Of a stretch of DNA of 64,000 bases, positions 13,448-63,582 are shown in pieces; the stretch's first letter is position 1; every line of letters starts with the position of its first letter. This DNA comes from Pegea sp. RAD2-039 (taxonomy: Eukaryota > Chordata > Thaliacea > Salpida > Salpidae). The notes beneath the pieces were generated by a model that saw only the letters and a list, made by a program, of their open reading frames with translations, did no database searches and had not been told where the DNA came from. A program made the translations under genes and the position numbers. The stretch covers positions 1,426,001-1,490,000 of the forward strand of contig JAQGEQ010000299.1 in the NCBI GenBank assembly GCA_034620365.1, given 5' to 3'.

Positions 13448-13473
13448 GATTGATGTAAGAAATTATTTAAGAA

Positions 13474-16400
13474 ATGATAAAACTACCAGAAGAGCTTTCA
13501 CATGCTACAAAGCCTTTTGTTGTCCTAACTGGACTGAATATTACTCATAATGCTATTCATCAGTCTATATGGGATGCATTTGTCAATAATCGACGAGAGA
13601 GCAGATTACCTCTATCGTTATCTTGCTTACCTGGTGACCATGCTTATCCTAAATGCAAAAATAAACGAACTTCTTATGATTGGTATATACCAAAAGGGCT
13701 CTTAAAAACAAAATGGATAAGTAAACATTTAAAACAAGTACCTGCTGTTGTTGTGATATTTATCGAATTAGATTGGGATGACCCTGCATGGCAAGAGCGT
13801 CACCAAGCATGTGCATCTCGTATACAAGTTGTAAGAGCAAGTTTAAGTGGCAGAGGAACTAAGTTGGCTGTGGTACTTTTACAGAACAAAACACCTATAC
13901 CACCTGGAGATGATCTAGGAAGCAGTGCTATTACAAGAGCAAACGCTCTTTGTAGCACTTGTGAGTTATCAGCTAAATCTCTCTTTGTTTTACCAATTAC
14001 TGATCAAATTTTGGGTTATGTCACTCGTCTTGAAGCTGCATTTTTTGAACTTGCTCAAAGCTATTATGTTGCTGAATGTAAACAAATTGAAGCTCATAAA
14101 GAATTTTTAAACAAAACAACTCATCAGCTGCTTTTTCCTCGACATCAATTCAAAATTGCTTTTTTTCATGAAATGATGCAAACTCCAGGAGCTCAACGGA
14201 AAGCACTGAAGCATTACATCCAGTGTTACAAGCTCATTCAAGAATTAAGGTCTTATGATACAAATAATCTAGAAATTAAGCTCATTGCTGGATTCGTTAA
14301 TTACAAAATTTGTCAGATTTCTTTCCTCAAACTTGATTCGCCAACTCCACTTGATGCAATCAGCCAATTTCGTCAGCATATCAATCATTTTAAGCCACTA
14401 CGTGGCAGTATGGAGCTGCTGTTTGAACATAGCACTTGGCTCTCTTATCAATTTAGTTTATTTGGTGAATTGTTTGAATGTGCCCTTAATCAGGGCTTGA
14501 CTGCCATCCAAACTCAACATCCGGGCTTCTATTTTCATCAAGCTGCGCGATACATTCGACAAAGACGAGAATTTTCCAGAAATTTATGTCCTAGTTCAGA
14601 AGACATTTATCCAAATGACGATCCTTTAAAAGACCCATTAGAGTTTTATGGACAACGTCAATGGAGACAAGGACAGCAGCGAATCGATCCGCCTGATATG
14701 GGTCGTGAGCGCGAAGGCGTTCTCGCTCTACAATTGCAAGAAGCCAAATTTGATCATTCTGCTGCAATCATTCAGCTGCTCACTCAAGCGATAAGTCACG
14801 TGAGAAAATTTAAATCACACCGTTTGAAATTAAGTTTGACTGTTCAAATGGCTGAAGAATGTTTCATTTCTGGTGACTTTTCCAAAGCAATTACTCTTCT
14901 GAAGCGTTCAATGCACGATTATGCGATAGACAGGTGGACGTTGCCACTATCTAACACCCTTAATTTTGCTTTACATTCAACATATCTAATCGGAGATATT
15001 GAATCATTTATAACTCTGTGTGTTTGTGCCATCAGTGAATCGTCAGGATTTTCTGTTGATGTTCAGAAAGGTTTACAGCACAGTTTACTTCATGTATTAG
15101 CGGGTAATACACCCGCTTATTCAAACCTATCACCTATCGGTGTTGTATTTGATAGAACAAAGACACAAACTGCATTAGAACATTGGCAAACATCTTTCGC
15201 CACTTTTAACAACTTGCAGTTGAATATGAATAGTTTATTTAGTTTTATTTACTGCAAAGCTTGCTTTTCATCCAATGAAACTCCTGTTTCTTCTCAAGCT
15301 ACTCTTTCAGTTTTCATCAAAGTCACGTGTCCATTAGCGATACGCTTCACTAAGCTTGTGGTGAGTTTTCAAGATGATAGCTACAATATTGAGTATGTTA
15401 ATAACGACAAACAAAGTGATCTCTGTTTTCAATCTGGTTCTATTTCACACCAACAATTTCAAATCCCTATCCACCAATCACATATCAAAAGTCATCTACG
15501 AGTTACATCACTCACTTTACATCTACAAAATCAATCCAATCCTTGTAAAGACCTGAAATTCACATGGCAGTGGCAAGCAAGTAAAAAAAGTCAGCTACTA
15601 CCTTCCGACAAAACTTTACTCCACCAAATAAATACTGAAGGTGTTAACAGCATTCTTTGGTCCAAAATACCAACTTGTTTATCGACTGTAATTGTAGAAC
15701 GTCCGTCTAAACTTCAACTGATCGTCAATCACCCAACACCTGCTTTAGTAAACGAGTTTTACCCGATTAAAATCTGTCTCACTTCTGATGAAGATCCTCA
15801 TAAAGTTGCTTCTGATATTACAGCAATGATTGTATTGAAAGGTGATGACTTCAGTTTGCTGTATAAAGAAACAGATGACAGCGAAGGTCATTCATCTATT
15901 CTAAGGAAGCTTAAAGACATGCAAGCTGGTGATAAACAAGAATCGTGTGTTTACTTCGTCAGTAAAAGTTGTAGTTCTGTGGAGGTGGAAGCGATCATCA
16001 CTTACAAATGTAACAACAATATGTCTGAAGAAGAGTTAGTCTGCTCCAGCACGATCACTAAACAATTCAAGATTGATGTTTCGGACCCTTTTAAGTTTGA
16101 ATTTAAGACTTTATCAAGTAGTTTGCAAACTTTATCTTCAGTTAAACTTCATGAGAATTTCATTCATACCATTAAAATCTCAGCAGTCACATCCTGGAAG
16201 CTACACATAGTTTCTAGCGAATATCAATTGCAAGTTAGTGATGAAAACTTTCATGTAAAACATGGAACGACAAATACTCTCACTGATATTTACTTACAAA
16301 ATGGAGAAGCAGCAATTGATGGATTACAAGCCTCTATCACTTGTCCTAATTTCAATCAATTAAATGTACATCAACTACAATTAGGAACTTACAAAATCAA

Positions 16401-16824
16401 ATGGAAGCGACTATCTACTGACGATGTGCCCGCTGTTTGGACTTGTTTACCAATACCACCTCTAAAACTTGAGATGTCCCCGATATCTGTGACCATGTCT
16501 TCGCCTCCCTATGGTGTCCTACATCAAAAGCTTTCAGTCAAATATCGAATCTTTAACTCAACTGATAAGACTCGTGTGGTTGAAGTTCGCTACGATGCGG
16601 TTGATTCGTTCACTTTTTCAGGAAATAAGTTTCATCGTAGTCACGTGCTACCATTTTCTCATCACAACGTCCCTTTTCACCTCTTCCCACTAGCTGTAGG
16701 TTACATTACACTTCCCAAATTAACCATCAAAGCAATTCAATGTGACAAGGACATAGATACTGCAGACAAAGTTGACCATAGTCAATTAGCAACTCATATT
16801 TACGTCAAACCAACCAAATGTTAA
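13474..16824 (+). CDS. TRAPPC11: Trafficking protein particle complex subunit 11
   Basis: TRAPPC11 is a subunit of the metazoan TRAPP III tethering complex, which acts in ER-to-Golgi traffic and autophagy. The whole protein, 1116 residues, is in one uninterrupted exon; the human protein is about 1130. The N-terminal half matches the foie-gras/TRAPPC11 helical-repeat region (for example QRKALKHYIQCYKLIQEL near residue 250 and KFKSHRLKLSLTVQMAEECF near 450). The C-terminal 'Gryzun' beta-rich region ends with SSPPYGVLHQKLSVKYRIFN and the family-typical end IYVKPTKC. The start at 13474 is the first ATG after a splice acceptor at 13447. Lack of coding introns is unusual beside the 34-exon channel gene and might reflect an old retrocopy that replaced the parent, or simple intron loss. 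The reading frame shows no damage. Confidence 0.95.
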   Translation: MIKLPEELSHATKPFVVLTGLNITHNAIHQSIWDAFVNNRRESRLPLSLSCLPGDHAYPKCKNKRTSYDWYIPKGLLKTKWISKHLKQVPAVVVIFIELDWDDPAWQERHQACASRIQVVRASLSGRGTKLAVVLLQNKTPIPPGDDLGSSAITRANALCSTCELSAKSLFVLPITDQILGYVTRLEAAFFELAQSYYVAECKQIEAHKEFLNKTTHQLLFPRHQFKIAFFHEMMQTPGAQRKALKHYIQCYKLIQELRSYDTNNLEIKLIAGFVNYKICQISFLKLDSPTPLDAISQFRQHINHFKPLRGSMELLFEHSTWLSYQFSLFGELFECALNQGLTAIQTQHPGFYFHQAARYIRQRREFSRNLCPSSEDIYPNDDPLKDPLEFYGQRQWRQGQQRIDPPDMGREREGVLALQLQEAKFDHSAAIIQLLTQAISHVRKFKSHRLKLSLTVQMAEECFISGDFSKAITLLKRSMHDYAIDRWTLPLSNTLNFALHSTYLIGDIESFITLCVCAISESSGFSVDVQKGLQHSLLHVLAGNTPAYSNLSPIGVVFDRTKTQTALEHWQTSFATFNNLQLNMNSLFSFIYCKACFSSNETPVSSQATLSVFIKVTCPLAIRFTKLVVSFQDDSYNIEYVNNDKQSDLCFQSGSISHQQFQIPIHQSHIKSHLRVTSLTLHLQNQSNPCKDLKFTWQWQASKKSQLLPSDKTLLHQINTEGVNSILWSKIPTCLSTVIVERPSKLQLIVNHPTPALVNEFYPIKICLTSDEDPHKVASDITAMIVLKGDDFSLLYKETDDSEGHSSILRKLKDMQAGDKQESCVYFVSKSCSSVEVEAIITYKCNNNMSEEELVCSSTITKQFKIDVSDPFKFEFKTLSSSLQTLSSVKLHENFIHTIKISAVTSWKLHIVSSEYQLQVSDENFHVKHGTTNTLTDIYLQNGEAAIDGLQASITCPNFNQLNVHQLQLGTYKIKWKRLSTDDVPAVWTCLPIPPLKLEMSPISVTMSSPPYGVLHQKLSVKYRIFNSTDKTRVVEVRYDAVDSFTFSGNKFHRSHVLPFSHHNVPFHLFPLAVGYITLPKLTIKAIQCDKDIDTADKVDHSQLATHIYVKPTKC

Positions 16825-16857
16825 TCTAATCTTTCATTTATTAACGTGCAATGACCA

Positions 16858-16882
16858 TGACGTCATGGTAATTATGACGTCA
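16858..16882. promoter_or_regulatory. Two CRE palindromes between TRAPPC11 and MED4
   Basis: TGACGTCA occurs at 16858-16865, inside the longer palindrome CCATGACGTCATGG, and again at 16875-16882. Their starts are 17 bp apart. They lie just after the TRAPPC11 stop and about 490 bp before the MED4 start codon. The sequence is the consensus for CREB/ATF bZIP factors. Placement suggests the MED4 promoter, but this is inferred. Confidence 0.5.
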
Positions 16883-17370
16883 TCACCGCTATAATAGTGC
16901 AATAGATGAAGACATGTATATTAGTTAAAGCTTAAAAGATTGATGGGAGTTGGTAAAGCCATCTAAGTTTTTGTGTCTACTTCTATTTAAAGTATTTTTC
17001 ATTTAATTTTTCTGTCTTTATTTCGTTTCTAATTTTAGTTTAACTTTCGTGGCGCATTTTGGTTGCTTGATTCGATTTCTTCTCTATCATCTCTTATAGA
17101 ATTTTATTAGGAGAAATTGCAAGTCACCTCTTTATCCAATTCACTTTCATTTTTCTTTCCTACATCACCTTGTTTATCAAATGCATCTTTTATTTATTTG
17201 CTGAATCAGAAACTATGTCACCAATACGCTTTTTTAGTTACATTCACAGCTTAATTAATTTAGTTTCTACTCAAATAATTTATTTTCTTATTCACTGATT
17301 GCCAATTGGCTTTCTTATTTAATGTTGTCAATAATTTTTTTCAGTCAAAAACTGTGTAGGGTTAACTAGT

Positions 17371-18264
17371 ATGCCTTCGTCAACTCCAAGTAAGTGATTT
17401 CGTATTTACTAAGTTTTTATTAAAAGCAACTTTTTTGTTTAAACTTTATCTAAACTTATCCAGCTTTTAACTTGTGTATAATTTGCAGGATTCTTACCTG
17501 ATGGAGATGAGATTATTGGGACTAGAGCAAGGTTATTGTCAAATTTAAACGATATTGAAGTGATTGTCAGACAAACTTTTGAAACTATTTCTACTAATCA
17601 ACGAGAATCTACTGAAAATGATTCCACAAAAACCACTAATAGCAAATCAATGAACGTCAGCAAGCTCATCAAGTTACTTGTCAATAAAAACAAGAATGTG
17701 GACCAGCTGATGAAAACTGCTGATCAACAGAAGGATATCCAAGCCAAGATTGATGAAACTAAGAAGAAGTTATCAAATACTGATGAAAGAATCAAACATC
17801 TTCATCACAGTTTTAAAAAAGCGGAAATTATTCAAGCAAATGCGATGTTTGTTGCTAAAGAACTACTGAAAAAGATTGATGTTGCTCAATCTGCTCCTGT
17901 TGGTTCCGAAGACATCGTGAAGTACGCTCATAAGATCAGTTCTTCATGCTCTACTGTATCTCCATTAAACTGGTCTCCAGGCGATCCACGCCGTCCTTAT
18001 CCACAAGATGTTGAGATGAAACTTGGTTTAATTGGACAGTTAAGCAACTTGCCTTCCAGAATGGACTCTAGTGAAACAGCGGATGTATCTCAGTTGAAAC
18101 CTCTAGGAACTGACGGGATCACTTTTACTGCTGCTCCAAAACAGAACTTTAATGGAATGCAATGGGCTCAAACATTAGCGGCTGAAGTGAAACCTGATGA
18201 TGCAGAATTGATGTCTTCTGATTCTTCATCATCAGAATCTTCAGAATCAAGTTTTGGTGATTAG
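17371..18264 (+). CDS. MED4: Mediator complex subunit 4
   Basis: MED4 is a middle-module subunit of Mediator, which links transcription factors to RNA polymerase II. It has two exons, 17371-17389 (MPSSTP plus one base) and 17489-18264, joined across a 99-nt intron (AAGTAAGT donor, TTTGCAG acceptor) into 264 residues; human MED4 is 270. A long coiled coil covers roughly residues 60-135. The family signature WSPGDPRRPYP follows at about 168-178, preceded by IVKYAHKISSS, and the end is Ser/acidic (SSSSESSESSFGD), as in other MED4 proteins. A pyrimidine-rich acceptor (TTTTTTTTCAG at about 17343) lies 27 bases before the ATG, so a 5' UTR intron or trans-splice site is possible. An AATAAA poly(A) signal is at 18542. 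Confidence 0.95.
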
Positions 18265-19848
18265 ACTTTGTACTTTCTTAAAATCGTGTTCGAATTTTCA
18301 GCTGAATTATTTTGATACTTTATTAAAGATCTTTATTTAGTGATTCAATCTCATTTATTAAGATATTGATTTAAATCAGTAAATATGGATAAACATAGGA
18401 AAGGGTTTAAACAAATTAAATAAGTGATGAAATAGATTAGATTAAAACTGATTCAAGTACTTTTATAAATCAATTGTGTATATTACAAAAAAAGAGACAA
18501 ATTGGTTAATTTGATGGATATTTTTGTAAAATATGAATTATAATAAATAAATCTTTGGAAATCTTTTCATACAAATTTAAATTTTATGTTTGTTTATCCG
18601 TAATTCAACAACTACAGTTTACATTTATTCACCTTTTTATGTTAGTAAGATCAAAGCATAGTTGAAAAAGTTAGAAAAAGAACTAGTTGAAGGCAAATTT
18701 TATATTTTACTAACAGTATTACTATGATAGTAGTTCATTGTTAAGAAAGTAAATTAAAGGAAAAATACTCGCAAACAAGTAGTACATTCTACGCAAGTGT
18801 TTGATTAGTAATAATAAATTGTAAAAAATTCAAACGTAGTTGAATTAGATACCAACTTTTTTATAGTCTTAACTATGAAAAGATTCTTGCAACTACTTTA
18901 AAAAACAATCTAAAAAATTGATCATAAATTTTATACAACAAAACTTTTGAACACTTGTTAAGTACCTTTATTTCATTTTAATGATGAAAAGGTCAGTAAA
19001 AACTAATTAGAATTTTTCCATCACTGTTATCGATTATCAGAGTTTAAAAAAATTTACCATCTGATTTTTTTAATATCTACTTTATTATCAATAGGTCTGT
19101 CTTAAAAATAATTTTCATCCTTAAATATTTTCATAAGATATCGATAAATGTTATTTTGAATTCCGAATAACAAACAAACTCAAAGCTAAACAAACTTATT
19201 TAACGTTACTAGGTAAAAAAACACTGAATAAATCCAATTTAAATAAATTATATACAAAACGAAATTATAAAAATTGAATTTTTTAAATAAACATATTTAT
19301 AATTTTGTTAACTAGCTTTAATTTAAGTGCATTTAAATAACTCGTGGTTATGTGATGCAAGTTTAAGTTTTTGCTTTAAAGATATTTACTTTGCAATTAG
19401 AAAAGTTTCATAATTAAATTATTTAGAATTAAGTTATGCTATAATATATATGGTATAAATATAAATTTTCAGCATTAATTATTAATAAGAATTAGACCCT
19501 ACTTTCTTACCTTTCATAAACGTCTACCATTTTGTACATCATAATAAGTTTATTTTTTAATGAAACTAATTGTTTGTGTAATAAAACATATTCTTAAATA
19601 GTTCTATTTCAATAAATTTTAAAAAGAAAATTTTATAAATAATTCATAGTCAATTTGAAATATTTTTAATCAATTTAAAACACTTAATTGATAAGTGATC
19701 ACCAATAATTTGTCAAGTATCATTTTTATTAATAAATGAAAACAAACTTTGTTGGTTGCTCACTTAAGCTTTAATGTTTATGATAATACATTTAATTATA
19801 CTATTTAATAAATGTTTTTCAATAGAAATTTGCAGCACACAATTTTAA
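18265..19848. other. MED4 3' region and AT-rich gap before the channel gene
   Basis: Holds the MED4 3' UTR and poly(A) signals (AATAAA at 18542 and 18546). It ends with a splice acceptor (AATTTGCAG) 13 bases before the channel start codon. No gene or repeat is seen between. Confidence 0.5.
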
Positions 19849-22800
19849 ATGAGATTTTTTAAATCTCTTATTAATCCCAGCGAAAAATTCAAAAATCTTT
19901 TCAAAAGTTCCAAGAAGAAAAAAAGACATGTAAACCTAATTGTAAGTTATAAGAGGGCAAGGCTTTCAGAAAAAAAACATTACACTGATGACGAGCTACA
20001 AAATTTTGTTGATGGCTGTTATACATACAAGAAAAAAGAAATTACTAAACAGCAAATAGCTCAGTTAATCAAAACGGATAAGAAAGTAAAAGATGACCTT
20101 AAGCGGCGCCATCCTGTATTTATGAATCATACAATATCTTACTACAATAAATACAGTCGTTATGCTTTTCTATTTTTTTTACTAATTATGACATTCGGGA
20201 TTTATTTAAGCTTCTACAATGCTGCAATCAAACCATCTTTAGAAGGATTCATGATAGTACATCTCACAGATTTTATTTATATTGTTATAATGGTTTGCAT
20301 ATCAAAAAGAGGTTTTATAATTCAAGGAGTAGAAATAAAAAGTCTTTTAAAAGTTCGATGGAGATATATGGCAACAGTTGGTGTTTGGTTGGATTTGATA
20401 TCATTGCTACCTATTGCACAAACTCACTATTTATTTGCTAACAGTGACTATATCTATTTTAGCTATGGATCCTTGAGAGTACTATTACGTTTCTTTTGTA
20501 TTGATGGATTTTTAAGTATGTGTTTTTATTTAAATGATTTAAGAAACAAATTATTTAATAATCATTTATAACTCTAAAATATAATTTTTATTTTTTATCA
20601 ACTTTACCACTATAATCTAACTAAATCTATAAATTTCAACATTTTATTTCTATAACTTTCTACCAAAATTTTAGATATTATTTCTAATTAGTTAGATAAG
20701 TAAACTAATAAAAGTTGTATTCAGAAAAATAATTTTGTTTTAACAGGCTCTATTGAAAGTGAAGTTGTATCTAGCACTTTGCTTTATCGCTCATTAAAGT
20801 TTCTTTTGCTGTCAACTTTATTTATTCATATTGCTGCTTGCTATTGGTATGCTATAGCCTGTGATACTGTCTTAGAATTTGGTGTACGTCCCACAACATG
20901 TAAGAATGATACTTGGATTCGATTTCAATCTTTTGGTAAAACAATATTATATATTTCTGATATTTAATTTATAAACAAATGTTTATTCTCTGCAGAAGAC
21001 TTAAAAGGTCTCCCAAACGGTTCTACTAAGGAAAATATTATAAATGATCGTAGTTACATGCAAACACCATATATTTCTAGTCTTTATTGGTCTTCTATGA
21101 CAGTTTTTTCTGTAGGATTTGGGGATATATTACCTCAAAATTTGACAGAGCAACTTTATGCTACAGCTATTATGATTATTGGTGATTAGGTTGTTATTAA
21201 AAGTTAAATTATCTATTTTTATTGCTATTTACTAGGTGTTGTAATAGTTTTTGGATTTACTGAAGCTTATATCATCTCTATTTTAACATATGTAAATGAA
21301 AGAAGAGCAAAATATAAATATTTCTTCAATTGCTTTTTTCAAGAAGTTGTAAGTCAAATGCTTTGATATTAGATGGATCAATTATCTTAGTTGAAAAATT
21401 TGATTTTTTTTCTAGAAATGGTTAGGTGTAACATCTCATGTTAAAAATTTATGCCGTCAGTATTACGAGTTTGTATGGAATGAGGGCCAGGGGTTTGATA
21501 TGGTTAAAGACGAGGCATTTCTTGCTCTGCCAGAAAGTGTCCGGATGGATATCTTCGTGGCAAAATATAAACATTTTTTTAAACAGGTTTTTGTGGATAG
21601 TTTGTTTTGAGCTTGTAATGTTTTTAAACTAAACATTTAATCTTTTTCACAAACTACATCTACTATTTGATAAATATCACTTCAGATAATCTTGTAGTAA
21701 CAGATTAAATTACTTGAACTTCATTTGACAGACGGTTATATTTAATACTTTACAACCTTCATTTCTTCGAAGTTTATCTCTGATAGTAGAGCAACAATTT
21801 TTTTTGAAAGATCAGTATATTCAACGTACTGGAAACATATCTACATTTATGTATTACGTTAGGCAAGGGCAGCTTGAAGTAGTGAATATTTGTAGTTAAT
21901 AAAACTCAGATAACTTAGTAATTGTTGCAGATAATTGACAAAGACAAAAATATAAAACTGAAATCCAGAAAAACTTATGGACAGAGTAGTATGATATTTT
22001 ATCAACCTCAATTATATTCAGTCCGTTGTGTTACTAACTGCATAATATTTATTATAAAAAGAGAAGACTTTCTCTCACTAATTTCACTTTATCCTGAAGG
22101 TTTGAAATTTACGTTGTCAAAAGCTTGTATAAGTTAAAAACTAGACTGAAAATTGATATTTTCTTAAGAGGCAAACACCTTCTTTATGAATGCTCATCAA
22201 TTTTGTCTCAATCCTTGGAAAATTATACCTCCTGATAACCAAAGGCTCAAGATAACGCTAAAGTTGGTTTTTACATAATGAGGTTGTTTTCACATTGTGG
22301 ATCAAGATAAATATTTTGATAGAAATAGAAGAGAAAAACAAAATATCAATATCTTCACCAGTTCACGGAAAATAGCTAAACATATGAAAGCAAATGAGTC
22401 ATCGGTTATTGGTTTGCCTAATGAAGTGATTGATGATTTCAGGAAAACTTTAGATTTAGAATTTGCGACAAATGCTTTTTTCAAATTTCCTGGTATTTTT
22501 TTTAAGGTTTTACAATCTAATCAATTTAAAAATATTATTTGAATATACAGATTTAATGTTTATGAAATACAATGAGTTAGTTGAAAACTTTGAGCCTAGC
22601 AAACAACAATATAATACTCAGTCTGGTGTGGTTCTTCCTGATTTTGATCCTAATAAAAAGCAAAGTATCTCTACTAATAGTAATTCCGAAAAAGATCAAG
22701 AAAGTAAACAACGAGTAAGATTTGAAACTTGTAAATACTTAATTCTAATTTCAAATATTTTCGAAAAGAGCTTTAAGAAAATTTGGAGATCTCTCACAAC

Positions 22801-25800
22801 ATCTGACTTTTTAATATTTGAAAGTGATGGTACTTTTATCAAGTACTGGAGGATTTGGATGTGTGTCCTTTCTGTCATCACTTTTCTTGTTATTACCTAC
22901 CTTGCTGGTTTCAGAACAACTGGTGGAGAAGGTTTGTCCAAGTTAATATTGACATGAAATCGTTAAAAAGGTTTTTAATTCTCCACCAGCAACTCTAATT
23001 GCTGATTAGTACTAAACTGAAAGTTGTAAAATTTCTTTAAATGAAACATATTTTGAGTGACTCTGGAAATAATCATTTTTTGGGGGGGAATTCTTGGTCA
23101 CAATTGATTTAAAATTATCTAAATAAATAACAAAATGGTTTGAATTATGTAAATGTAATTATCAACTGAACTATTGCAGTGAAAACTTATAGGAATGGTG
23201 AAATCAGTCAGAGAGAAATGTTAGATATCTTATCAGATAATTGTTATGATGAAGGCTCTTCACTATACAAAAAATTTTGTTTAAAATTTGTTGAAAGCAC
23301 TTTTGATGAGCTGTTGTCATGTGTTTCGATGGTGTCTGGTGGAAGAGTAGCACTTACATTCACTGAAATTGATGCATCCAACTGGAGGTTTGGTGAAAAC
23401 TCTTTTTCTATTTAAATATTCATCAATTACTTTGTAGCGTTACTTTCCCTTCTTATTACGACCGATCTCAAGCCCCTTATCAGTACAGGAGCGATGATGG
23501 CCCTCTTCAGATCAGATTCAAATACTTTCACGATCTTTTCTTCTTAATTTCTATTTTTGTCAACCTTTGCACAGAAGTAACAACATCAGATGGTTAGTTA
23601 CTAATATATGATATTTAACTAAAATGACAAATTATAGGAGTCGTCACTCGAAAAAGATCTGTTATTTTAAAACAATACTTTAAATGGAATCAGTTTTGGA
23701 TGGATTTTTTTGGCTTACTTCCTTTTACTTTATTTGCAACTTCAAAAAGTTGTATAAGAGCTGACGAGCTACATATGTTCACATTTTTAATGTTTAATCG
23801 TCTCGTTTACTTTTACCGTAACGTTATTCAATATTTTAATCATTTATCAAACAAAGTCAGCACCAACATGACCTTAGTTCGTTCAGTACAAGTGGTTGTC
23901 TATCTTTACACTGCAACACACACGTGTGCTTGTATAGCTTTTTGGTTGGCTTGTTCTTTACAACTCCAAGAGTAAAACTTTTGTTTTGAAACCTACAATT
24001 TGTTTGCATTAATTGTTTTTCAATTTTAGTAAATTTGATGTTGACATTTTCGCACCCAAGTGTAAGGTTGGCTCCTGGGCCTCATTAGCTGGAATCACTC
24101 ATAAAACAAGATACTTGAGCGAGTATGCGACATCTATGTATTGGATGACTGCAACTATGACAACCACTGGGTATAGATATATTTATCGTGTTGGAACAAA
24201 TAAATAATTAATCTTTAAGTTTCCAAAGAACTTTTTGCTTACAAAATAATCTTTAGAATAAATTGATAACAAATTGGATGCAGATATGGTGACATAACAC
24301 CTTCAAGAAGTTGGGAGAGAATTTTTTTGATATTTGTCATGTTCAGTGGTGCAATTTTATATGGATATGTGGTTGTAGTGGTCGCTCTTACCCTATCAAG
24401 TAACTCTAATGCCAAAAGAGAATTCCACAATAATATTCTTACAACTTTACACTACTTAAAACAACTAAAGGTTGAAGATTTAAAAATTAAATTCCATTAA
24501 CAATTGGCTTGTTGCAGATAAGTGAAGCTGTTATTGATCGAATGATAAGTATCAGAAAAATTCAATGGAATCATTTTAAGGGTGCTATAACTCCAGAATC
24601 AAAAAAACTTAATCATAAACTCTCACATACTCTAGCACTTAATTTAAACTATGATATTGCACATAAACATATTCGAATGGTTCCTTTTTTTTATGGTTGT
24701 GATGTTTCTTTTATTAACCAACTTTGCCATAAAGTATTTACTCATTACTACAGTAAAGGAGATGTAATTATGTATGAGGTAAATATCAAAGCATCTTTGT
24801 AATGAGATTGAATTGATGCAGTTTATGTTAGGGTGACTTGATCAGGTTTTTTTATATCATAAAACGCGGTAGTTGTTATATTGTCACAAAAGATCTTTCT
24901 GAAATAGTGGGTCAAATAAAAGAAGGGGGATTTTTTGGAGAATTGCAAGTAACTCTTCCTGTGATAATCTTGTTTTTAGATCTTGCCTACATTTTATTTT
25001 AGACATTTTTCTCTCATCCAAGCTATCGGACTGTAGTGGCTGCTTCTGCATGCGAAGTCCTTGTCTTTAGATGGAAAGATATTGATGAAGTTTTGACTAA
25101 CTTTTCAAATATTCGAAGTGATATTCATAAACTGCAAACCAACAAGATGTACATTTCATATCTGGTGGCTGCAGTCAAAAAAATCTACGACAACAAAATA
25201 ACTGGGTAAAAATAGATACCACCAATTTCTCACTCATCTCATAAAGCTGTCCATTTGTAGGTTGAAATCACGATTAACTAGAAAAGATAATATTTATAAT
25301 ATCCATGGTGGAACGTACGTTTATGGAACTTCATATAAAGAAAAATTTGCAAACAAGCTACTTGTATCAGATAATGTGATTAGTCTAAGGACACCATATA
25401 AGAAAGTGTGTTACTTGTTGCAATTTAGTGGGGTGAAACCTTTCAACAGGATATTTATGTTTTTTTTACGTATTATGGTGTTACCAGTAACATTTGAACC
25501 AACATCTAATTACTATCTGTATTATGAAAGCGTTCGTGCTGTTCTTATTTTTTTGCAGTTAATGATTATACCAACGCAGGTTTGTATTTGTAATATCAAC
25601 CTCAGTTTTATCTTGACACACATATTTCAGATTGCTTTTTACCCCAAAAATGTATACCTGATCTTTTTGTTGTATTTGATTGACATCTCCCATTTTATCG
25701 ACCAAATTATCAAATCTCACACGACATATATCACCTCTGAGGGTATAAAGATCAGGCATCCATTAGCTACTGTACATTTCTACCTCAGTCACCACTTTTT

Positions 25801-28800
25801 AATGGACCTTCTGTCATGGCTTCCATTTGAGTTGTTCGTATTTTTAGTTTTTCCAGAATCAAATAATTTGTCAATCAACCAGCATCGTTATATCTCGATG
25901 TTTCGTTTGAATAGAATCCTATTAGCTTACAAAGTAAGTTACTTCTTTTGCTTCTTGTGTTTATTCAAATGTTGTAATTTAGTTGTACAAATTTTCGGAA
26001 TTTTGCACTGATAGTGTAACCGCTAAATACCGACATCTATCAACTTTGGTTCTCCCTTTTCAAATTCTTCTTCTACATCACTGGACCTCATGTTGTTTAA
26101 TGTTATTTGCATTTTCACCGCATATTTATCATGTAAGTCACATTTGATTTCAATCAGTGTCTGAAGTCTTTAAATGTTTACAGGTAGATCCTGCAGATGA
26201 CAAGTATTATTTCATGATTGCAAAATCAGGAAAAATTGACTACTGTTCAAAAGATTCCTGGCTAGCACACATCTATGAAAACCATCTTTACGTTTACGTC
26301 ACTGATATCTTACATTCCATCTACGAACAGTATTTCGTCGCTTTCTATTGGTCTATGACAAGTTTAGTTGGTGTTGGATATGGTGATGTAAAGACCAGTA
26401 ATTCAGCAGAGGAACTTTTTAAGACTATTGTTATGATTCTTGGGTGTGTTTACTATTCTTATCTATTGGGAGGTATTTGTGTGTTGATCGAAGCCGCTGA
26501 CGCAGAACGAGGCTTCTTCTACAGTCGATTGTCTCATGTACAAAGTTTTTTTCAACTTCATAATATTTCAAATAAAGTTTATTTAAAAGTGAGTTAATGA
26601 GAAGAGCTGTTAGTTGTACTGATCACTACTTATTCAGTTATTACAACATTATGAGTATGAATGGCATCGAACTAAAGACACTGAACTACAGTTTTTATTT
26701 CATGGTCTACCCCCCTCATTCATGGGTTGCCTACAACTTTGTATGTACATGAATATGACTAGATCAGTATTAAATTTAAAAGGCGAAGTCAATCATCCAA
26801 TGATATTGGGGCTAATGAGAATGACTTCCACAAGAATCAAAACAATTTTCTTATCACAAGATGTAAGAATTTGCAGGTGAGTGAATGGGTTTAGGGTACA
26901 CACAACAATTGAGTAATTGATGCAGAGCCAATGATGTAGCTGATAGTTTGTTTTACGTGAAACGAGGTTCTCTTATTCAACTTGCTGCATCTACTGGAAA
27001 AGCTGTGAAAATTTTTAGACGTGGTGACTTCTTTGGTGTGGTAACTATCAACTTCTAGTTCTTTGATGTTGTCTACATCCAATTTGAACTCTAGAAATCT
27101 GGAGATACTCATCGGACTTATCCTTATACTATTAAAACATTAACTAGTTGTGATTTGTATGAAATCAAATTGAGTGATGTGGAAGAGATGAATAAACATC
27201 CGTTTGTGACTAAACAAATGTTGGATTTTTTCAGCCTGGTGATTATCATTAACTTCATCATCGTTTACTCAAATCTTATCTTTGATTGTAGATAAAAGAC
27301 AAGAAGTTTTCTTTCCAAAAAAATGATGAAGATTTAGGGGAAGAACTGATCAAAATACAATCAGAAATGATCAAACAAAACATGAAGACTGTTGCAGAGG
27401 TAGCAATCACTTGTAAACCATCCATCAACAACCTCTTTGTAGACTTTAGATGCAGATTCAGCATTTATAGGAACTTGGAGATTTATATCTCTCTTCTTGG
27501 CTTGGTTTCAATCTTGCTTTGTGGTTTTCTTGTTCGGATTTACAACTTATGATCGCCGCTGCTACCTAGTCTGTTATCTAATCGACTGCTGGTATAAACT
27601 ACTAAGAAGTAATCAAATAATGAAATTAATTTTTTCAAGGTTTATTGTCGATCTATTTGTTTCATTTCATGTGACATTTATGGACAAATTTCAAGTGAAA
27701 GTGAAAAATATTTCAATAATTCGTTACCATTACTACAAAACACCTTCTAAATTCCTCTTATCAGCTTGTGCTTGCTGTCCATATGAAACTTTTATTTTGT
27801 TGTTTCCTTTGTCTGCTGCCAATAGAGTTTATTATTTCTATTTATTTCGATTAAATCGAACTCTTCACTTCATAACAGTTGTGATGTCTCTCAACAAGTG
27901 GGAGGCAACTGCATCAAAGAAGTTGGTATCTTTATTTCAACTTACATCGAACTAAACACATTTCATTTCAGCATTTTACTTTTACGAGTTTTCAAATTTT
28001 TACTAATCTACTTTTTCATTGCGAACTTCTGCTCTTGTATCTGGTATTTAATCGCGTGCCCTTTAAAAGATTGTAACGAAAATACCTGGGTTGACGCCCC
28101 AACAATAGGTTTACAACAAAAAAGTTTGATTATATTCTTATTTTGTAACTTGCAGATTATCTGGCTGGTAAGCAATATAAACCAAGTTTAATTCTTTGGT
28201 TTGATAGCTTATATTGGTTTGTTGCAACTACTACCTCAACTGGTTTTGGAGATGTCTCAGGAACCACAATAGATGAGATGATATATTCTTGCTTCGTGAT
28301 GTTACTCGGCAAGCTACTGATTGGTTATGTGTTGGGACTGGCTAGTGTTACTATCACTAACAATCAGCTACAATTTTTCCAGTTTGAAGAAAAAGCTAAA
28401 GTGAGTTGAAGAGACGTTTCCATGGTAACCAGTTTGGATGTTTTGTAGAGAATTCAGGGTCGCATGGAGAGGCTTAAACTTGATGCTGAATTGAAAGATA
28501 CTGTCACCAGATTGCTTGACTGTGTTTGGTTGAAGAGTAATGGAGTTAATGTAATGAAGTTGTTCACTGAAATCCCGGATACGTGAGTAACTATCATCAA
28601 AAGAGTCTTTAATCAGCATCTAGTAACTTTAGGATGCAATCAGAACTCTTTAGCTCGATTTACAGTGAATCTTTAAAGTCTGTGAAGATCTTTGCCAACT
28701 GCTCGTCGCATTTTATCAGAAAACTTTCAACGGAAGTCACTCCAATTTCGTTTCTTCCTAAAAATTATCTGGCTCGAAAAGTTAGTTGATCATTACATGA

Positions 28801-29173
28801 TCATTTTAGGTAACATGACGTTATAGGGAGATGTTCGCGACGTCTTATTCATCATGTTAAGTGGAAGAGCAAAAGTTTACAAAAATCAAAATGGGAAAGA
28901 TCAGTTGGTCCGTGATATGGTTGATGGAGACGTTTTCATGCCAGAAAGTGTTTTGAAAAAGGTGCGAGAAGTTATTTGAGATGTAATCCATCCGCTGATA
29001 CAGATTTACAGACTCGTCGATGGGTTAGTGTAAAAGCTGCTACTTATGTTGATGCTCTGTTCTTATCAATGAGTGGATTAAAGAAGACTTTAGATAGTTA
29101 TCCGAAAGATAAAAAAATTTTGAAGAAGAATATTAGACTTTTGTACCCTAAAATTATAAACCCTAAAAAGTGA
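19849..29173 (+). CDS. CNGK: CNGK: four-repeat cyclic-nucleotide-gated K+ channel
   Basis: One chain holds four channel repeats, each with S1-S6 and a C-linker plus cyclic-nucleotide-binding domain (CNBD). It should fold as a pseudotetramer. In sea urchin sperm this family opens with cGMP, lets K+ out and hyperpolarises the flagellum. I joined 34 exons (19849-20515, 20747-20935, 20996-21181 and so on to 29004-29173); their lengths sum to 7059 nt, 2352 residues with no stop. K+ selectivity filters are GFGD (about residue 325), GYGD (1041), GYGD (1620) and GFGD (2110). CNBD2 keeps the canonical GFFGEL and downstream YRTVV; CNBD1 has GQSS, CNBD3 GDFFGV and CNBD4 GDVFMPE. S4 helices carry few charges (FRLNRIL in repeat 3, FRLNRTL in repeat 4). 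Repeat 2 has a long S1-S2 loop. Most introns are 43-69 nt. Poly(A) signal at 29225. Exon edges are by eye; a few joins (exons 8/9, 21, 26/27, 33/34) rest on frame. Confidence 0.93.
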
Positions 29174-30136
29174 TTTATAACAAAAGTTATTTGATCTTTC
29201 ATTCATTTTCCTGGTTTCCATTTTAATAAAATATTTTTAGCAAATTGTTGAAGATTTTCTAATCTTTGTATAAATAATTTTGATAGAAAATAATTAAAAG
29301 AAGTCCTGATTAGAAGTCATCTGATATTTTATCAAAAATAAACTAACTGATGAAAATGCAACAAATCGAATAACATTTTTGATTTAAACAACAAGTTTTC
29401 AGGGTGCGAAAGAAGCCCCAATCATCTAAAAATATTAATTTAATGAGTTTTGATGGATGAAATAAAACTTACTATACATTATCTCAATAAACCCATTTTA
29501 CAGTTCTACTAATTTTATTTTTTTGCCCAAAATTGGTGATAGTTAGTGTTGTGACACGAAATATTCATTGAAAATTATTGGTCTATTATCCCACCAGTGA
29601 CTTCTTTAAATGATCTGAAAAATCATGAAATGCAGTACGCCTACAGCTTTCAAGATAAACAAACATTCAGAAAGCTTAGATCCGGCGATGAAGTAGGACA
29701 TAATTCTTTCCTACAAAACGAAGAAAAGTGATGCTCCCACCTCAAAAGTTTTGACTTCCACTGAAATCCAGATATTTTCTATTTACGACATTACGTTAAT
29801 TTTAGCGCCTTCTTTGACGAAAAGAAGAAAATATTTAGAAATCTTAGAGATAGAAGCTCAAATTCTATTTGAATAAGGTTATATATTATGTTGTATTGAA
29901 TAGTCTTATAAGTTGCAATAAAATTATTTCTCGTAAGTGATTTGTATATAACTTGTGATAAATTAATGTATTTGGATAAGAAATCGATTCAAACTTTTTG
30001 GTTTTGTTACACTAAAAATCTTTCATGGAAGTAAAAACTTTGGTGGATCCGAATAAAAATGACAATACCTTAAGTTCCAGTTTACAGAAGTTCAAGTCCA
30101 TTCCTAACAAACCGACTTCATCAAAACAAGCTTGCG
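29174..30136. other. Channel 3' UTR and gap
   Basis: The channel 3' UTR is short, with AATAAA at 29225-29230, 52 bases after the stop. The rest is AT-rich with a slightly more GC-balanced patch at 29580-29830. No gene was recognised there. Confidence 0.5.
29225..29230 (+). terminator. Poly(A) signal of the CNGK gene
   Basis: AATAAA 52 bases downstream of the channel stop codon. The base composition makes AATAAA common in this window, so position, not the motif alone, supports it. Confidence 0.5.
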
Positions 30137-31960: not shown

Positions 31961-33303
31961 TTAGTTTTCATTATTTTCAGAAGCTGAAGTTTTGTCAGAA
32001 GACGTTGAAACTTCTCCAGAAGATACTCTAACAAGATCTGAAGATACAGGGATCATTTCAACAGAACTTGAAGTGATGTGGGAAGACACTGGGATCATCT
32101 CAGAAGAACTCGAATTAATTTCTGAAGATACTGGAATAATTTCGGAAGAACTCGAATTAATTTCTGAAGGTACTGGAATAATTTCCGAAGATGTTTGAAT
32201 CACATCAGAAAATTGTTGAGTCATCACAAAAGATGGGTGAATTATCTCAGAAGATTGGTTTTTTAAATGAGTGCCTCTGGAGTTTTTAAATTTCAGAATA
32301 AATTTTTGTGATGATGAATCCTAAATAAAATATATTTTAAAATATTTCAATTGTAAGCTTTATAAGTAACCTTGACAACAGTGAAGTCTTCCATTGAAAT
32401 AAGAGGAGAAGCCACATAAATGACTTTCTTTTGACGTTGATTACTTGTTTTCCATATATTTTCCTCATCAGTTGGTATGGAGGTACATAATGAAGATGAG
32501 GACTTTTGATTATGACAGCTGTAAACAAAATAGATCGGATGAATTGGTTGCTAAGTAACATGTACATCGATCTTTAGCAAGATGATTTAACTTAGAGCCG
32601 TAGAAAAGTTGGAATGATTCGTCAAAAGTTACTGCTGCTGGTTCACAAGTTTCATAATTTGTCGAAATATTCTTCAAGTTTTCACTAAAAAGATTAACAG
32701 CGTTACAAATTGCTGATGACGTCATAACCACTCGACGAACAAATCAGAATTACGAAATCCCTGAAGATAGGTTTCAGCAATCAACATTTCTTCATCATTT
32801 AAACCCAGAATTTCATTTTCATCGAGCAGTTTAGAAATCTTGAAAGTATTTCATCAAGATTTTGGGATTTTTTTTTATAAGCGTTACCTCTTTAGCTGAC
32901 CAAGGTTGTTTTAACATTTTATTAAAACTAAAAATTTTCTTTAAAATTTCTTCATTACAAATCCATTGTTTGTTATCTTTAATTTTTATCATAATTCTTT
33001 GAAGATCCTCTTCTTTAATGATGTCATCATCAGCAGCAGTGACGTCACGATCAGTAATTTGAAGTCGAATTTGATTGGTGGCTGTCTGAATGATTTTAGA
33101 TAAGAACTTGAAAGCTTGAGTAGTATCAGTTTTAACCTGTAACAGTCAATCAATCAACTCTATCGGAATACACTACACTTGATAACGTCACTAACTTTGT
33201 TGAAACTATTACGACAGGCTTCTGCCTGCTCTTTTGCTTTTTTTGTTTCTTCTGCAGCGCTATTTGCACAAAACGCCAAATTTGTCAAATCTAATTTTTT
33301 CAT
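31961..33303 (-). CDS. Unrecognised gene with Ser/Glu repeat tail
   Basis: I do not recognise this protein. Six exons join in frame: 33303-33196, 33136-32888, 32838-32805, 32730-32592, 32518-32371 and 32320-31961, giving 345 residues. There is no signal peptide or membrane helix, so it is probably intracellular. The first part is helical and charged (NSAAEETKKAKEQAEACRNS), the middle is mixed (IPTDEENIWKTSNQRQKKV), and the C-terminus carries four degenerate 14-residue repeats of the type SSEIIPVSSEINSS, then a Ser/Thr-rich end. The third intron is uncertain: removing 74 nt (32804-32731), or only 23 nt (32753-32731), both keep the frame; the second choice adds 17 residues (GLNDEEMLIAETYLQGF). 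A CRE palindrome lies 57 bases upstream of the start codon. Confidence 0.62.
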
Positions 33304-34244: not shown

Positions 34245-35279
34245 TCAAAATGGTCGTATGAATTTGATTCCACTAGCTTGTTGATAATGTTTTGTTAAAG
34301 TAACTAACCCGCTTTTAGTAAACTTTACAAATTTTCCAGTTTCAAAGTTCATCAAATAGTTAGTTTTAGTATAATGTGAAAAATAGGAGCAAAAAATGCG
34401 TGTGTCATTCTCTTGTAGATCAGTTTTTCCTTCTTTTATAACAACACGATTCCGTTTATCGTTCACATCTAGGTAATAAACAGAATATTTGCTCAAATAT
34501 TCTATTATATAGTAAGGAACACCGCACATAAACTTAATTTTTCGTATCAACCAAACAGTTTTATTTCTTTTATCAGTGACTTTTGCATATTTCCTTTCTA
34601 TATCGCTCGTCATACTGATATCATTGATTGAGGATTGAATAAAAATAGCAAAAGATGGATATAATTGTATATTTGTTTTCTTAATTACTTTCAAAAACAT
34701 ATTATGGTAAGAAACTACTAAATCGTTCAATTGACATGAGTCGAAAATATAAGGAGTTATTGAAGTGACTTTCAATTCACATCCCAGACTATTTGGGACA
34801 CCTTTAAGAAATTCGACTACATATCCGCTATTAAGATGAACCATAAGTGTGTTACCAGTCACCGGATCAAAGCTGATAACAAAAAAACGATCATCATTCT
34901 TGAGAATTGTTTTTGTGTCTTCTTTTATTACCATTTGAAGGTTTTTGTTGAAGCTCAGGTATTTGATAGATCTTTTTTGAGGAATTCCAAATACTGCTAG
35001 CTTTGTTCCTCTAAACTCAAAATCCCACATAAACCAATATGGGATTCTGTGATCATTTTGTTTTTTATTATTTTCTTTTCTGTCAAAACTCTTTCTAACT
35101 TGATGACCAAAGTAGATGGCCTTAGAATTCTTCCAAGATAAATTTTTGAGCTTAAGGTAATCTAAAGTTTGTTTCAAATCCTTGTATTGAGTTTTATAAA
35201 CAAATTTGCAGCACTTTTCGCTATGAAGTAAAGTTACTCCTCTTAGAAAGAGAAAGAACAAAGTTAAGATCAAATACAT
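34245..35279 (-). CDS. Secreted protein with two beta-trefoil-like domains
   Basis: 344 residues in one exon. A signal peptide (MYLILTLFFLFLRGVTLLHS) is followed by two related domains of about 135 residues (about 60-200 and 205-344). Shared marks are an aromatic pair after Pro (PYWF / PYYI), a YLSF/YYLD strand about 18 residues on, a basic strand (MVIKED / VVIKEG), D-D/N-D-x-R-F/I-F, then a SG/TG turn with Y/K-V-V/K-F. The alternation of short strands and turns looks like the beta-trefoil fold of FGF, IL-1 or related cytokines. That fold call is inferred from pattern only. The single-domain gene at 46293-46913 is a clear relative, closest to domain 2. A splice acceptor (TTTGCAG) sits one base before the ATG, implying a 5' UTR intron or trans-splicing. 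Function unknown; a secreted ligand or lectin is possible. Confidence 0.7.
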   Translation of the reverse strand: MYLILTLFFLFLRGVTLLHSEKCCKFVYKTQYKDLKQTLDYLKLKNLSWKNSKAIYFGHQVRKSFDRKENNKKQNDHRIPYWFMWDFEFRGTKLAVFGIPQKRSIKYLSFNKNLQMVIKEDTKTILKNDDRFFVISFDPVTGNTLMVHLNSGYVVEFLKGVPNSLGCELKVTSITPYIFDSCQLNDLVVSYHNMFLKVIKKTNIQLYPSFAIFIQSSINDISMTSDIERKYAKVTDKRNKTVWLIRKIKFMCGVPYYIIEYLSKYSVYYLDVNDKRNRVVIKEGKTDLQENDTRIFCSYFSHYTKTNYLMNFETGKFVKFTKSGLVTLTKHYQQASGIKFIRPF

Positions 35280-38200
35280 TCTGCAAATGAAAATATTTTA
35301 AAAAGATATTTAAAAATATTTATATCAAAAAACTGGAAGTAACTATATATTTTATGTATTTCGATTATTTACTCGCTTTTTAAACAAACAGTTTAAAAGT
35401 TAAATTTGTATAAGATTTATTTGCAAGTGTTTGATGAGTAAGATTATTTTTGTTACAAAAAATTTATGAAACTCTTTGTGATATAAACTTATCACATATT
35501 TTGTAAACCAAACTAGAAATATATTACAAAAAAGTACTATTTCTGGTGGATAACATATTTTTCTGCGCTATAAAACACCTTTTAAAGATAAAGTTAATGA
35601 TAAAAAACTATTTGAAATTTATTTCAATTTAAGAGTATTGGATTTAGGATATTTTAATAAAATCTTATTCTTATTTTCTATAAGGTTATACTCTTTCCTA
35701 TAAGGTTATACTCTTTCCTATTAAAGTAGACTAGATGATTCGTGTATTTACGCGTTTCTAAAGTATCGTAGCTACTAAGAGTAAGATTCATTAACACAAA
35801 GTGTCTTTATCTTAGTATCTTCGACATAACAGTTTTTGAAAATAAAATTCAAAGCTAAAATTGTTTTAATTTCTTGTTTTGTGCGTGAGTTACAAACAAA
35901 TGTCGATAATACGATAAATAAAAATCATTCTTATTGTGTTAGTTGGTCAAATACTAAAATCTGATTTAAAAATTCGGTTTTTGATGTAACCGTTATTACA
36001 CATTCTATGAAGTTGGTATATTTGTTAATTGTCATTAGTTATTAAACATAACCGTTCATTTGGTGAAACAGAAATAACAACTGTTTATTGAAATATAACA
36101 AAATTTGGTGTGATATAGCGTCGTAAAGTAAGATTTATTTACTTGACACAATCTTACCTTTAAACTTCATTGACTGCTAAAACGGAACATTAATCTGATG
36201 AGTAGCTCGTCTAAGAGGTGCATATTCTGCGGACATGTCTTGTATTTGGTACTCAGAAATTCTTATGCTTTGCTTGCTTTAACAAGCGTATATCAAAACA
36301 CCAACTTTGATAATAATTCTTACTCTTCTAATAAAATTACAATCAACTCGATTTATTTTCTGTTTTTCTTTAAACCTTTGTGAAAGTTGTTTTTCGTTTA
36401 CCACAGCTATAAGAAATAGTTAAAAGTAAACTAAACTAATGTAATTCACTGCTGAGATAGACTCGTATTACAGTTTCTTTTCTAAAATACTTCTTTAAAA
36501 GTATACAGTAGGAACTAAAATATACGAAAAACCTTGTCAAAACGTGTAGTCTAGTTTTATATACTTCCATCTAAATTATTCAGATATCAAGAACGATTTA
36601 TTTTTTTTGGTAATAAAAATATAAACAAATACAACGGTAAATAAACCAAAGTAAATATTGGTAAATGTCATATAACTGTGTTTGCGAAGAGTCTTTAATA
36701 ATTTAAACTTTCATTATACAGGTGAATAAATTACTATCAAATTTTGTTCAAACTATAACCCAGTGGAGTGGTTTTGTTTGTTACAACAAGACGTAACACT
36801 AAACCTTAGATCAAAATTATTATATAAACTTTTTTCTAATTGACTTGATTTGTAAAATATTGCAATTGTTTTAAAATGAAATAAGGAACTTCATATATAA
36901 TCAGATCTAATATTTGTTTGAATCAGGTATTTCTAACATAAAGAAATAAATTAAAGTAAAATAAAAAGAATTAAACTTGAATAAGTTAGTATTTTATTAA
37001 GACAAAATTTTACGCTGTTCAGTTAGATTCTGAAGAAAAATTCCTGAATCTAAGTAAGCTTTATAATCAACCTGATATTAAACAAAGAATATATTTGAAA
37101 TTTCAAAAGACATATAATCAAAATTGAAATTGCTAAAGTTTAATTCTTCATAAGTGAAAAGAATATCGACTAAACTCAAAAATAATTGCATCTTAATAAT
37201 TTTAGCTGTAAAGCTCTCATCAAAACAGTATTTGCATTTTCAACGTTAGTTTTTCTGTTGACCTTTTTAATGTAAATATTAAACATAAAATTGTGATTTG
37301 AAGATAAAATACATGATATATCTTTACTCCATGCATCATTTTATGAGCTTCTAGTAATCAGTGTTTTTATTATAGGTTTTATTAAAATATTTGAAATATA
37401 AGTCAATAAATAATAAAGTATATTATTTTTCAAGTGTTTGTTTCACTTTTAACATTATATTAAACTGGTGTTCATCAGTTAATTTTTGGAATTTTTATTT
37501 ATTTCATTTTTGAACTACACTTTATCTGCAAAGTTTCAATAGAAGTATGATTGAAATTAGTGTAAAAACTAAAAATTGATTCCATTTCCAACACTAATAA
37601 ATTAAATAATTAATTTACTTAAGATAATTAAAATTTAATTTTTCTAAACAATTTTCTGACGTAATATTAGGTTAAATAATAAACTAATTATTGGAAAGTC
37701 AAAGTTAACTTTAAAAGATGCTAAACTTTGTAATAAATACAACGTTAAAAAAGAGAAAAGATTATGGCGAACAAATGCTGTGCAAGTTCTGTAAACTTAT
37801 CTTTTAAGCTGCAGTAACAACACAGTCCTAGAAATTTCTATTAAAGCTGGTATCAGCCTGGTAAAATAAAGTGCTTCGTTTTGAAATTACAACATTTTTA
37901 ACAATCATATATATTTTCTCTTGTAAGATAAATTAAATGTTTTTAAACAATGAATCTAATAAAAAGAAAACTTGTTTAAAATTATTCATATCCTCTATCA
38001 TTTTCTAAGTTTCCGAATATTTCTTTGATAATTGGAAACTATCATCTGACACGAAGAGATTATTTGTCTCTTTGCGTTTATTTATCTAAGTTAAAGATTC
38101 AATAATGTTCAAATTTGTTTTAATAACTTGGAAATAAAGGAAAATTGTTGTCAAGATTTTCATTAATTTTGTTTATTTTTATAATCATTTATATTTATCA

Positions 38201-63528: not shown

Positions 63529-63572
63529 GTAGGACACGATTGAAAGAGCAGCACATGCGACAAACCGCCAGC

Positions 63573-63582
63573 TTATATATAG
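63573..63582 (-). promoter_or_regulatory. TATA box of the CCN-like gene
   Basis: On the minus strand GCTATATATAAGC lies about 45 bases upstream of the first ATG at 63528. Transcription would start near 63540-63550, leaving a very short 5' UTR. This supports the model that the gene starts here and has no upstream coding exons. Confidence 0.6.

Follow-up and report, generated by a model that had tools for sequence, protein, structure and literature searches.

The window considered here, a stretch of 64,000 nucleotides (nt) from the salp Pegea sp. RAD2-039 (G000:C249:1426001-1490000, in an assembly of 105.7 Mb and 387 contigs), carries a gene for a potassium channel of the CNGK type, here called CNGK-A, in which four six-transmembrane (6TM) repeats, each with a cyclic nucleotide-binding domain (CNBD), follow one another in a single polypeptide. 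Two further loci of the same genome, CNGK-B and CNGK-C, serve throughout as comparison. In the curated spliced model CNGK-A starts at the ATG at 19849 on the + strand, its stop codon ends at 29173, and 34 exons separated by 33 introns encode about 2350 amino acids (aa). Bounds and exon number agree with a preliminary description of the locus, which had also claimed one frame of 2352 residues: the single frame is borne out, the length comes to 2350, two residues fewer. At the level of sequence, the observation of a spliced four-repeat gene at 19849-29173 is confirmed. Its parts are as follows, with R1 to R4 denoting the repeats and S1 to S6 the transmembrane segments.

19849-20515, 20747-20935, 20996-21181, 21236-21348, 21416-21586, 21732-21881, 21931-22099, 22169-22204, 22283-22492, 22551-22931, 23180-23387, 23438-23592, 23638-23971, 24030-24170, 24284-24470, 24518-24778, 24832-24948, 25003-25205, 25261-25579, 25631-25933, 25983-26132, 26184-26588, 26638-26876, 26926-27040, 27095-27238, 27292-27399, 27443-27591, 27640-27921, 27972-28108, 28156-28400, 28449-28582, 28633-28780, 28827-28961, 29012-29173, + strand: coding part of CNGK-A, 34 exons, about 2350 aa (curated spliced model and paralogue alignment)
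19849..22204, + strand: N-terminal region and repeat 1 (S1-S6, C-linker, CNBD1), with Gln/Gln at the aligned ligand Glu/Arg places
21115..21126, + strand: filter of repeat 1, GFGD, preceded by Val
22283..25205, + strand: R1-R2 linker and repeat 2; CNBD2 keeps the Glu (FGE), the Arg place is Ser, and an Arg lies two residues on, as in CNGK-B
22922..23498, + strand: S1-S2 loop specific to repeat 2, 93 aa, extracellular by topology, interrupted by introns 22932-23179 and 23388-23437; three Cys in common with CNGK-B
24169..24293, + strand: filter of repeat 2, GYGD, preceded by Thr and interrupted by intron 24171-24283
25261..27238, + strand: part of the R2-R3 linker and repeat 3; in CNBD3, the site whose sea-urchin counterpart gates the channel, the Glu place is Val and the Arg place Tyr
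26376..26387, + strand: filter of repeat 3, GYGD, preceded by Val
27292..29173, + strand: R3-R4 linker with repeat 4; the Arg is retained in CNBD4, and a Glu stands one position past the canonical place (FMPE)
28242..28253, + strand: filter of repeat 4, GFGD, preceded by Thr

All 33 introns are of the GT-AG class, 43-248 nt long with a median of 51; exon 1 measures 667 nt and the remaining 33 exons 36-405 nt, and GC content is 33% in the coding part and 27% in the introns. The frame has zero internal stops, where 200 shuffles of the coding sequence gave a mean of 173 in-frame stops and a minimum of 144.

The model was built by eye and from homology, and was revised at three places after paralogue alignment. 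Automatic self-trained gene models were dropped: a weak intron penalty produced 97 exons, and strong penalties skipped real ones. A first curated model (33 exons, 2352 aa) was replaced as well, its CNBD1 having run on into the linker; the small exon and the intron 22100-22168 were adopted because CNGK-B and CNGK-C have introns there and a conserved Cys points to a small exon, and both paralogue alignments recover that intron. Spliced alignment to the window, by a purpose-written splice-aware aligner, recovered 29/33 introns at both ends with the CNGK-B protein and 30/33 with that of CNGK-C, as counted before one acceptor was moved to 28632, the site chosen by both alignments; this check is not fully independent, the B and C proteins having been predicted with the window protein as guide, with splice sites that are their own. 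Introns outside the curated list were proposed as well, seven by CNGK-B and six by CNGK-C, mostly in linkers or a few bases off. The weakest parts are the R1-R2 linker and both ends of the gene. Within that linker, doubt attaches to exon 22169-22204 and to intron 22205-22282, which neither paralogue alignment recovers; an in-frame 63-nt stretch at 22715-22777, with GTAAGA..AAG ends, is skipped as an intron by both and is possibly an alternative intron. A CNBD-like tail past the stop (open reading frames 29555-29873) was dropped, being without a Pfam match; outside the gene, tblastn with the three proteins gave nothing credible (best E 0.08, elsewhere).

Each repeat of CNGK-A combines a K+ filter of the GYG or GFG kind with a recognisable CNBD. 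The four filters claimed in the preliminary description (GFGD, GYGD, GYGD and GFGD) are all located in the curated model, and the four CNBD regions claimed with them all pass the curated Pfam cut-off of 27.5 bits for cNMP_binding (36.0, 55.9, 36.8 and 45.0 bits in repeats 1-4); Ion_trans_2 is above its cut-off in 4/4 repeats and Ion_trans in 2/4, all these scores having been obtained on the earlier 33-exon model with the protein split into its four repeats. The identification as CNGK holds by architecture: one frame, four 6TM-CNBD repeats and a K+ filter in each. The channels to which the repeats match in the PDB include SthK, KCNH1, KCNH2, CNGA1, CNGA2, SKOR, GORK and HCN, all single-repeat CNBD channels, and no chain named CNGK stands among the best 60 of the 178 matches to CNGK-A, nor among the 60 listed per repeat. 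HCN, CNG, KCNH and plant SKOR-type channels share the 6TM-CNBD fold, but carry one repeat per gene. The sea urchin CNGK or tetraKCNG proteins (ApCNGK, Sp-tetraKCNG), as described in excerpts of the published accounts on which we draw here and below, are alike in having one polypeptide, four 6TM-CNBD repeats and G(Y/F)GD filters; the published CNGK set spans choanoflagellate, sponge, cnidarian, tunicate, acorn worm, amphioxus, sea urchin and fish (PMC4749565).

A genome-wide search for the CNBD family gave 26 matches, and the 20 stretches holding them were examined together with the window, using the four CNGK-A repeats and pieces of SthK, CNGA1, hERG and SKOR as queries. Besides the window, two loci carry all four repeats, in order and on one strand: C76 (CNGK-B) and C8 (CNGK-C). 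In splice-aware alignment CNGK-B is identical to CNGK-A at 702/2201 aligned residues (31.9%), spread over the whole length, and CNGK-C at 634/2240 (28%); the N-terminal parts of both are unreliably modelled, as is the repeat-2 loop of CNGK-C, where the aligner placed several doubtful introns. The genome is accordingly read from its sequence as holding at least three CNGK genes; further copies may exist, since the CNBD family search missed CNGK-A itself. The excerpted account in PMC4749565 gives one CNGK for each of 11 species, against at least three in this one genome, and no title about CNGK paralogues stands among those listed in literature searches on CNGK and tetraKCNG.

Single-repeat channels of this genome include an ERG-like KCNH, present as five pieces at 59-91% identity to hERG, along with another KCNH-like gene and one CNGA-like gene; PF08412, which we take to be the HCN N-terminal family, is matched twice. 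The putative CNGK genes thus sit alongside the CNBD channels usual for an animal. As to possible sperm partners, PF00999 gave seven matches on four contigs; C29 alone among these also has a CNBD match, about 470 kb away, and this bears neither way on SLC9C1, as the CNBD search missed CNGK-A itself. Two pairs of CNBD matches lie at G000:C31:12502-13198 and 18517-19213, the members of each pair 6015 bases apart, with scores of 34.1 bits (equal) and of 43.1/44.6; the cause would be either a CNBD protein duplicated recently in tandem or its duplication in the assembly.

How the three genes arose is approached through their repeats. In a tree of the 12 repeats of A, B and C with four outgroups (379 columns), same-numbered repeats cluster across genes, with ultrafast bootstrap values (UFboot) of 100 for R1, 100 for R2, 99 for R3 and 100 for R4; a tree joining the four repeats within each gene is rejected (delta log-likelihood 382.8; approximately unbiased (AU) test 1.6e-120). 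Because same-numbered repeats group across genes, it follows that a finished four-repeat gene was copied whole; on this tree, the four-repeat gene is older than its copying. Introns agree: those identical by column and phase number 23/27 repeat introns for A-B, 21/27 for A-C and 22/30 for B-C (permutation means 0.13-0.18, maxima 2-3), as counted on the 33-exon model of CNGK-A.

Within a gene the introns behave otherwise. The preliminary description had proposed that intron positions, aligned between repeats, might reveal tandem exon-block duplication, an idea that found no backing: CNGK-A has just one exact position common to repeats, R2 and R4 (mean 0.16, p = 0.14). This intron, in phase 0 just before the GD of the CNBD, occurs in A, B and C (p = 0.19 in B; C was not permuted) and may be chance. 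Repeat introns within three columns of each other are near chance too, numbering two in A (mean 1.08, p 0.29) and three in B (mean 1.34, p 0.15). Since introns are mostly unshared between repeats, they must have been gained, lost or moved after the repeats joined. The AU test does not reject a tree in which all 12 repeats are monophyletic (0.43), and the pairings 1+3/2+4, 1+2/3+4 and 1+4/2+3 receive 0.19, 0.17 and 0.13, the unconstrained best tree 0.81. The published pairing, which places R1 nearest R3 and R2 nearest R4 (PMC7576140), is the first of these, and the test speaks neither for nor against it.

The repeats also differ from one another more than the literature would lead one to expect. 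A review describes CNGK repeats as nearly identical, with equally short linkers and no obvious specialisation (PMC6259924), a pseudo-symmetry that A, B and C do not share. Repeat identity within a gene is 16-24% (18 comparisons, mean 19.7%), and that of the same repeat across genes 25-34% (12 comparisons, mean 30.1%). A long S1-S2 loop is confined to repeat 2, with 93 aa in A, 91 in B and 80 in C; the loops of A and B share three Cys and 18 identities over 90 aligned residues. That of CNGK-B lies within one 317-column tblastn match and hence is independent of the aligner, on which the CNGK-C loop depends. The linkers R1-R2/R2-R3/R3-R4 measure 180/118/57 residues in A, 142/99/33 in B and 173/103/54 in C, the B and C lengths leaning on alignment to A. 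Pseudo-symmetry is treated here as an incidental part of the published description, not as a defining CNGK feature.

The ligand sites carry the functional argument. The conserved Glu of the phosphate-binding cassette contacts the cyclic nucleotide. The Arg of the same cassette, a second contact with the ligand, is described as crucial, and in sea-urchin CNGK one cGMP bound at the third CNBD opens the channel (PMC4749565). With the two columns read against SthK, the Glu/Arg pairs of repeats 1-4 are Q/Q, E/S, V/Y and P/R in CNGK-A; Q/R, E/C, E/R and T/I in CNGK-B; and Q/R, E/S, V/R and V/R in CNGK-C. Both contacts are kept in 1/12 repeats, repeat 3 of CNGK-B, and in none of CNGK-A's; the feature that goes with gating of the sea-urchin type, an intact CNBD3, is absent from CNGK-A (V/Y) and present in CNGK-B (E/R), so that ApCNGK, opened by one cGMP at CNBD3, differs from CNGK-A, which has neither Glu nor Arg there. 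An Arg stands two residues later in repeat 2 of A and B, and a Glu one residue later in the fourth repeat of all three genes, which leaves room for partial function.

A model for how CNGK-A may work is the zebrafish channel DrCNGK, which shows no cyclic-nucleotide response and is gated by intracellular pH (PMC4749565). Its pattern differs from the losses of CNGK-A: DrCNGK is reported to have a 42-residue insert in the C-linker of R3 and Ala for Arg in repeat 2, and CNBDs 1 and 4 without obvious abnormality. In the excerpted account the zebrafish CNBDs are termed canonical (the one with Ala for Arg included), and no sequence feature explains their insensitivity (PMC4749565).

Pore and voltage sensor complete the picture. 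The residue before the filter, listed from R1 to R4, reads V, T, V, T for CNGK-A, T, T, V, T for CNGK-B and T, A, I, T for CNGK-C; sea-urchin CNGK carries Thr at this place in all but one repeat, which is linked to sodium block, and this Thr is noted as absent in freshwater organisms (PMC4749565). Thus ApCNGK has it in 3/4 repeats, CNGK-A in 2/4 (R2 and R4) and CNGK-B in 3/4. Repeat 2 of CNGK-C (G000:C8:82000-101000) has the filter SAGLGD (GLGD), without an aromatic residue, and its selectivity may differ. Basic residues within an S4 window of 21-22 residues number 2, 2, 5 and 2 in R1-R4 of CNGK-A, compared with 6 in hERG, 5 in SKOR and 4 in CNGA1; from these counts CNGK-A would depend weakly on voltage, repeat 3 arguing this less than the others.

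The best explanation overall, to which we give a probability of about 0.8, is that CNGK-A would be a CNGK-type channel, one of at least three whole-gene copies, and would not be opened by cGMP at CNBD3. Its architecture, four 6TM repeats in one polypeptide, is observed; the repeats would fold as a pseudo-tetramer round one K+-selective pore, the selectivity being ascribed to the filters. Opening would come mainly from the cytoplasmic ring of C-linkers and CNBDs and not from voltage, S4 being charge-poor in repeats 1, 2 and 4. Since CNBD3 of CNGK-A has lost both canonical contacts, we infer that cGMP does not open the channel at that site; with its ligand sites partly decayed, CNGK-A probably does not follow the usual mode of switching. 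Regulation may instead come from intracellular pH, as in the zebrafish channel, or from a ligand of a non-canonical kind; alternatively, gating may have passed to repeats 2 and 4, which keep partial contacts. CNGK-B, which keeps both CNBD3 contacts, would be the likelier cGMP-gated member. Efflux of K+ through such a channel would hyperpolarise the cell, presumably a sperm cell, should the tissue match that of other animals.

Several points weigh against this explanation. The family assignment is supported by architecture and appears sound on that ground, published CNGK sequences having been compared by description only. CNBD2 and CNBD4 of CNGK-A keep partial contacts, and binding of a cyclic nucleotide there is possible; some voltage dependence is possible too, repeat 3 having five S4 basic residues, equal to SKOR and more than CNGA1. 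Residues predict gating poorly, because the insensitivity of the zebrafish channel comes without a sequence explanation. As for the history, the branching order of the three genes differs by repeat (A+B 88 for R1, B+C 76 for R2, A+C 47 for R3, A+B 73 for R4), and the best tree sets hERG beside R3 (UFboot 78) and SKOR beside R2 (45), so that monophyly of the 12 repeats is not found in it.

The alternative that survives best, though we think it rather unlikely, keeps CNGK-A cyclic-nucleotide gated and assigns the gating to CNBD2, CNBD4 or both in place of CNBD3. CNBD2 outscores the other three in Pfam (55.9 bits), and it retains FGE with an Arg two residues late, an arrangement found in CNGK-B also; CNBD4 retains the Arg with a Glu one place late, which B and C have at the corresponding position of their fourth repeats. 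Yet in the excerpted account of the sea urchin channel site 3 alone works (PMC4749565), and the Arg place of CNBD2 is Ser, ungapped in the alignments to 5v4s_A and to SthK.

A further possibility, which we consider improbable, makes CNGK-A a decaying or non-conducting paralogue whose frame is still open. The ligand sites lend themselves to this, CNBD1 and CNBD3 having lost both aligned contacts and CNBD2 and CNBD4 a single contact apiece; degeneration has gone further in A_R1 and A_R3 than in the matching repeats of B, and tips are long for all three genes. Against decay stand an intact frame of 2350 codons, 33/33 GT-AG introns, four intact K+ filters and 31.9% identity to B along the length; the three paralogues have diverged too much for use of the ratio of nonsynonymous to synonymous rates (dN/dS). 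That four adjacent single-repeat genes, or two two-repeat genes, merely mimic one frame is very improbable: each repeat alone matches single-repeat CNBD channels in the PDB, and the long R1-R2 (180) and R2-R3 (118) linkers are where splicing is least certain, but all four repeats are read through in one stop-free frame, and at two other loci these four repeats recur in identical order, on one strand and with mostly the same repeat introns, so that the earlier claim of one gene rather than several is strengthened and a split is unlikely.

Other features of the window and of the examined stretches may be recorded here. Upstream of CNGK-A, on the same strand, a Med4-like (Mediator subunit 4) frame occupies 17482-18264. 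At 13471-16824 lies an intronless frame of 1117 residues with Foie-gras_1 and Gryzun matches, presumably TRAPPC11-like and perhaps a retrocopy or an intron-poor gene; GC content is 34-37% across 14001-18000 and 21-34% in the remaining 2-kb bins of the window. The - strand carries two C-type lectin frames (1356-1847 and 8821-9312), a TSP1 domain of the CCN type at 63181-63591 (TSP1_CCN, 4.9e-17), and two long frames with hydrophobic starts (34245-35297 and 46293-46928), secreted-looking by eye and without a Pfam match at E up to 1. Within the - strand frame 31961-32320, a 21/42-base tandem repeat at 32037-32192 gives Ser-rich repeats resembling SSEIIPVSS. Near the contig end of G000:C1, a diverged, truncated ribosomal RNA copy adjoins a long satellite of ATCATCAACAAAATT-like units, and G000:C27 has what is by eye a normal 18S-ITS-5.8S unit (ITS, internal transcribed spacer). 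The 5.8S piece looks bilaterian, and the gene content points to an animal host. A search of the genome for COX1 gave no match, its control having been detected in 8 of 14 genomes; innexin and CATSPERB_C likewise gave no match, but as their controls stayed silent too, this does not count towards absence.

One way to understand the salp genes is as an old family of at least three CNGKs among which the ligand sites were divided: CNGK-B would have kept the repeat-3 cGMP site, and CNGK-A would have lost it and become differently gated, all three retaining an asymmetric build with a Cys-bearing loop in repeat 2, against the published view of no specialisation. We put the odds of this fuller account at about even. 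What would set the gene apart is the lost third site together with the conserved asymmetry; should the published CNGKs share the loop and the linkers, the gene would be another member of the family. The three-gene set separates the joining of the repeats, which is older and left introns unshared, from the copying of the whole gene, which is younger and left them shared. The accounts drawn on here present CNGK as a single sperm channel in each species, converting a signal into hyperpolarisation; three diverged copies, one of which keeps both contacts of the cGMP site, would amount to a natural experiment on which of the linked CNBDs gates the pore.

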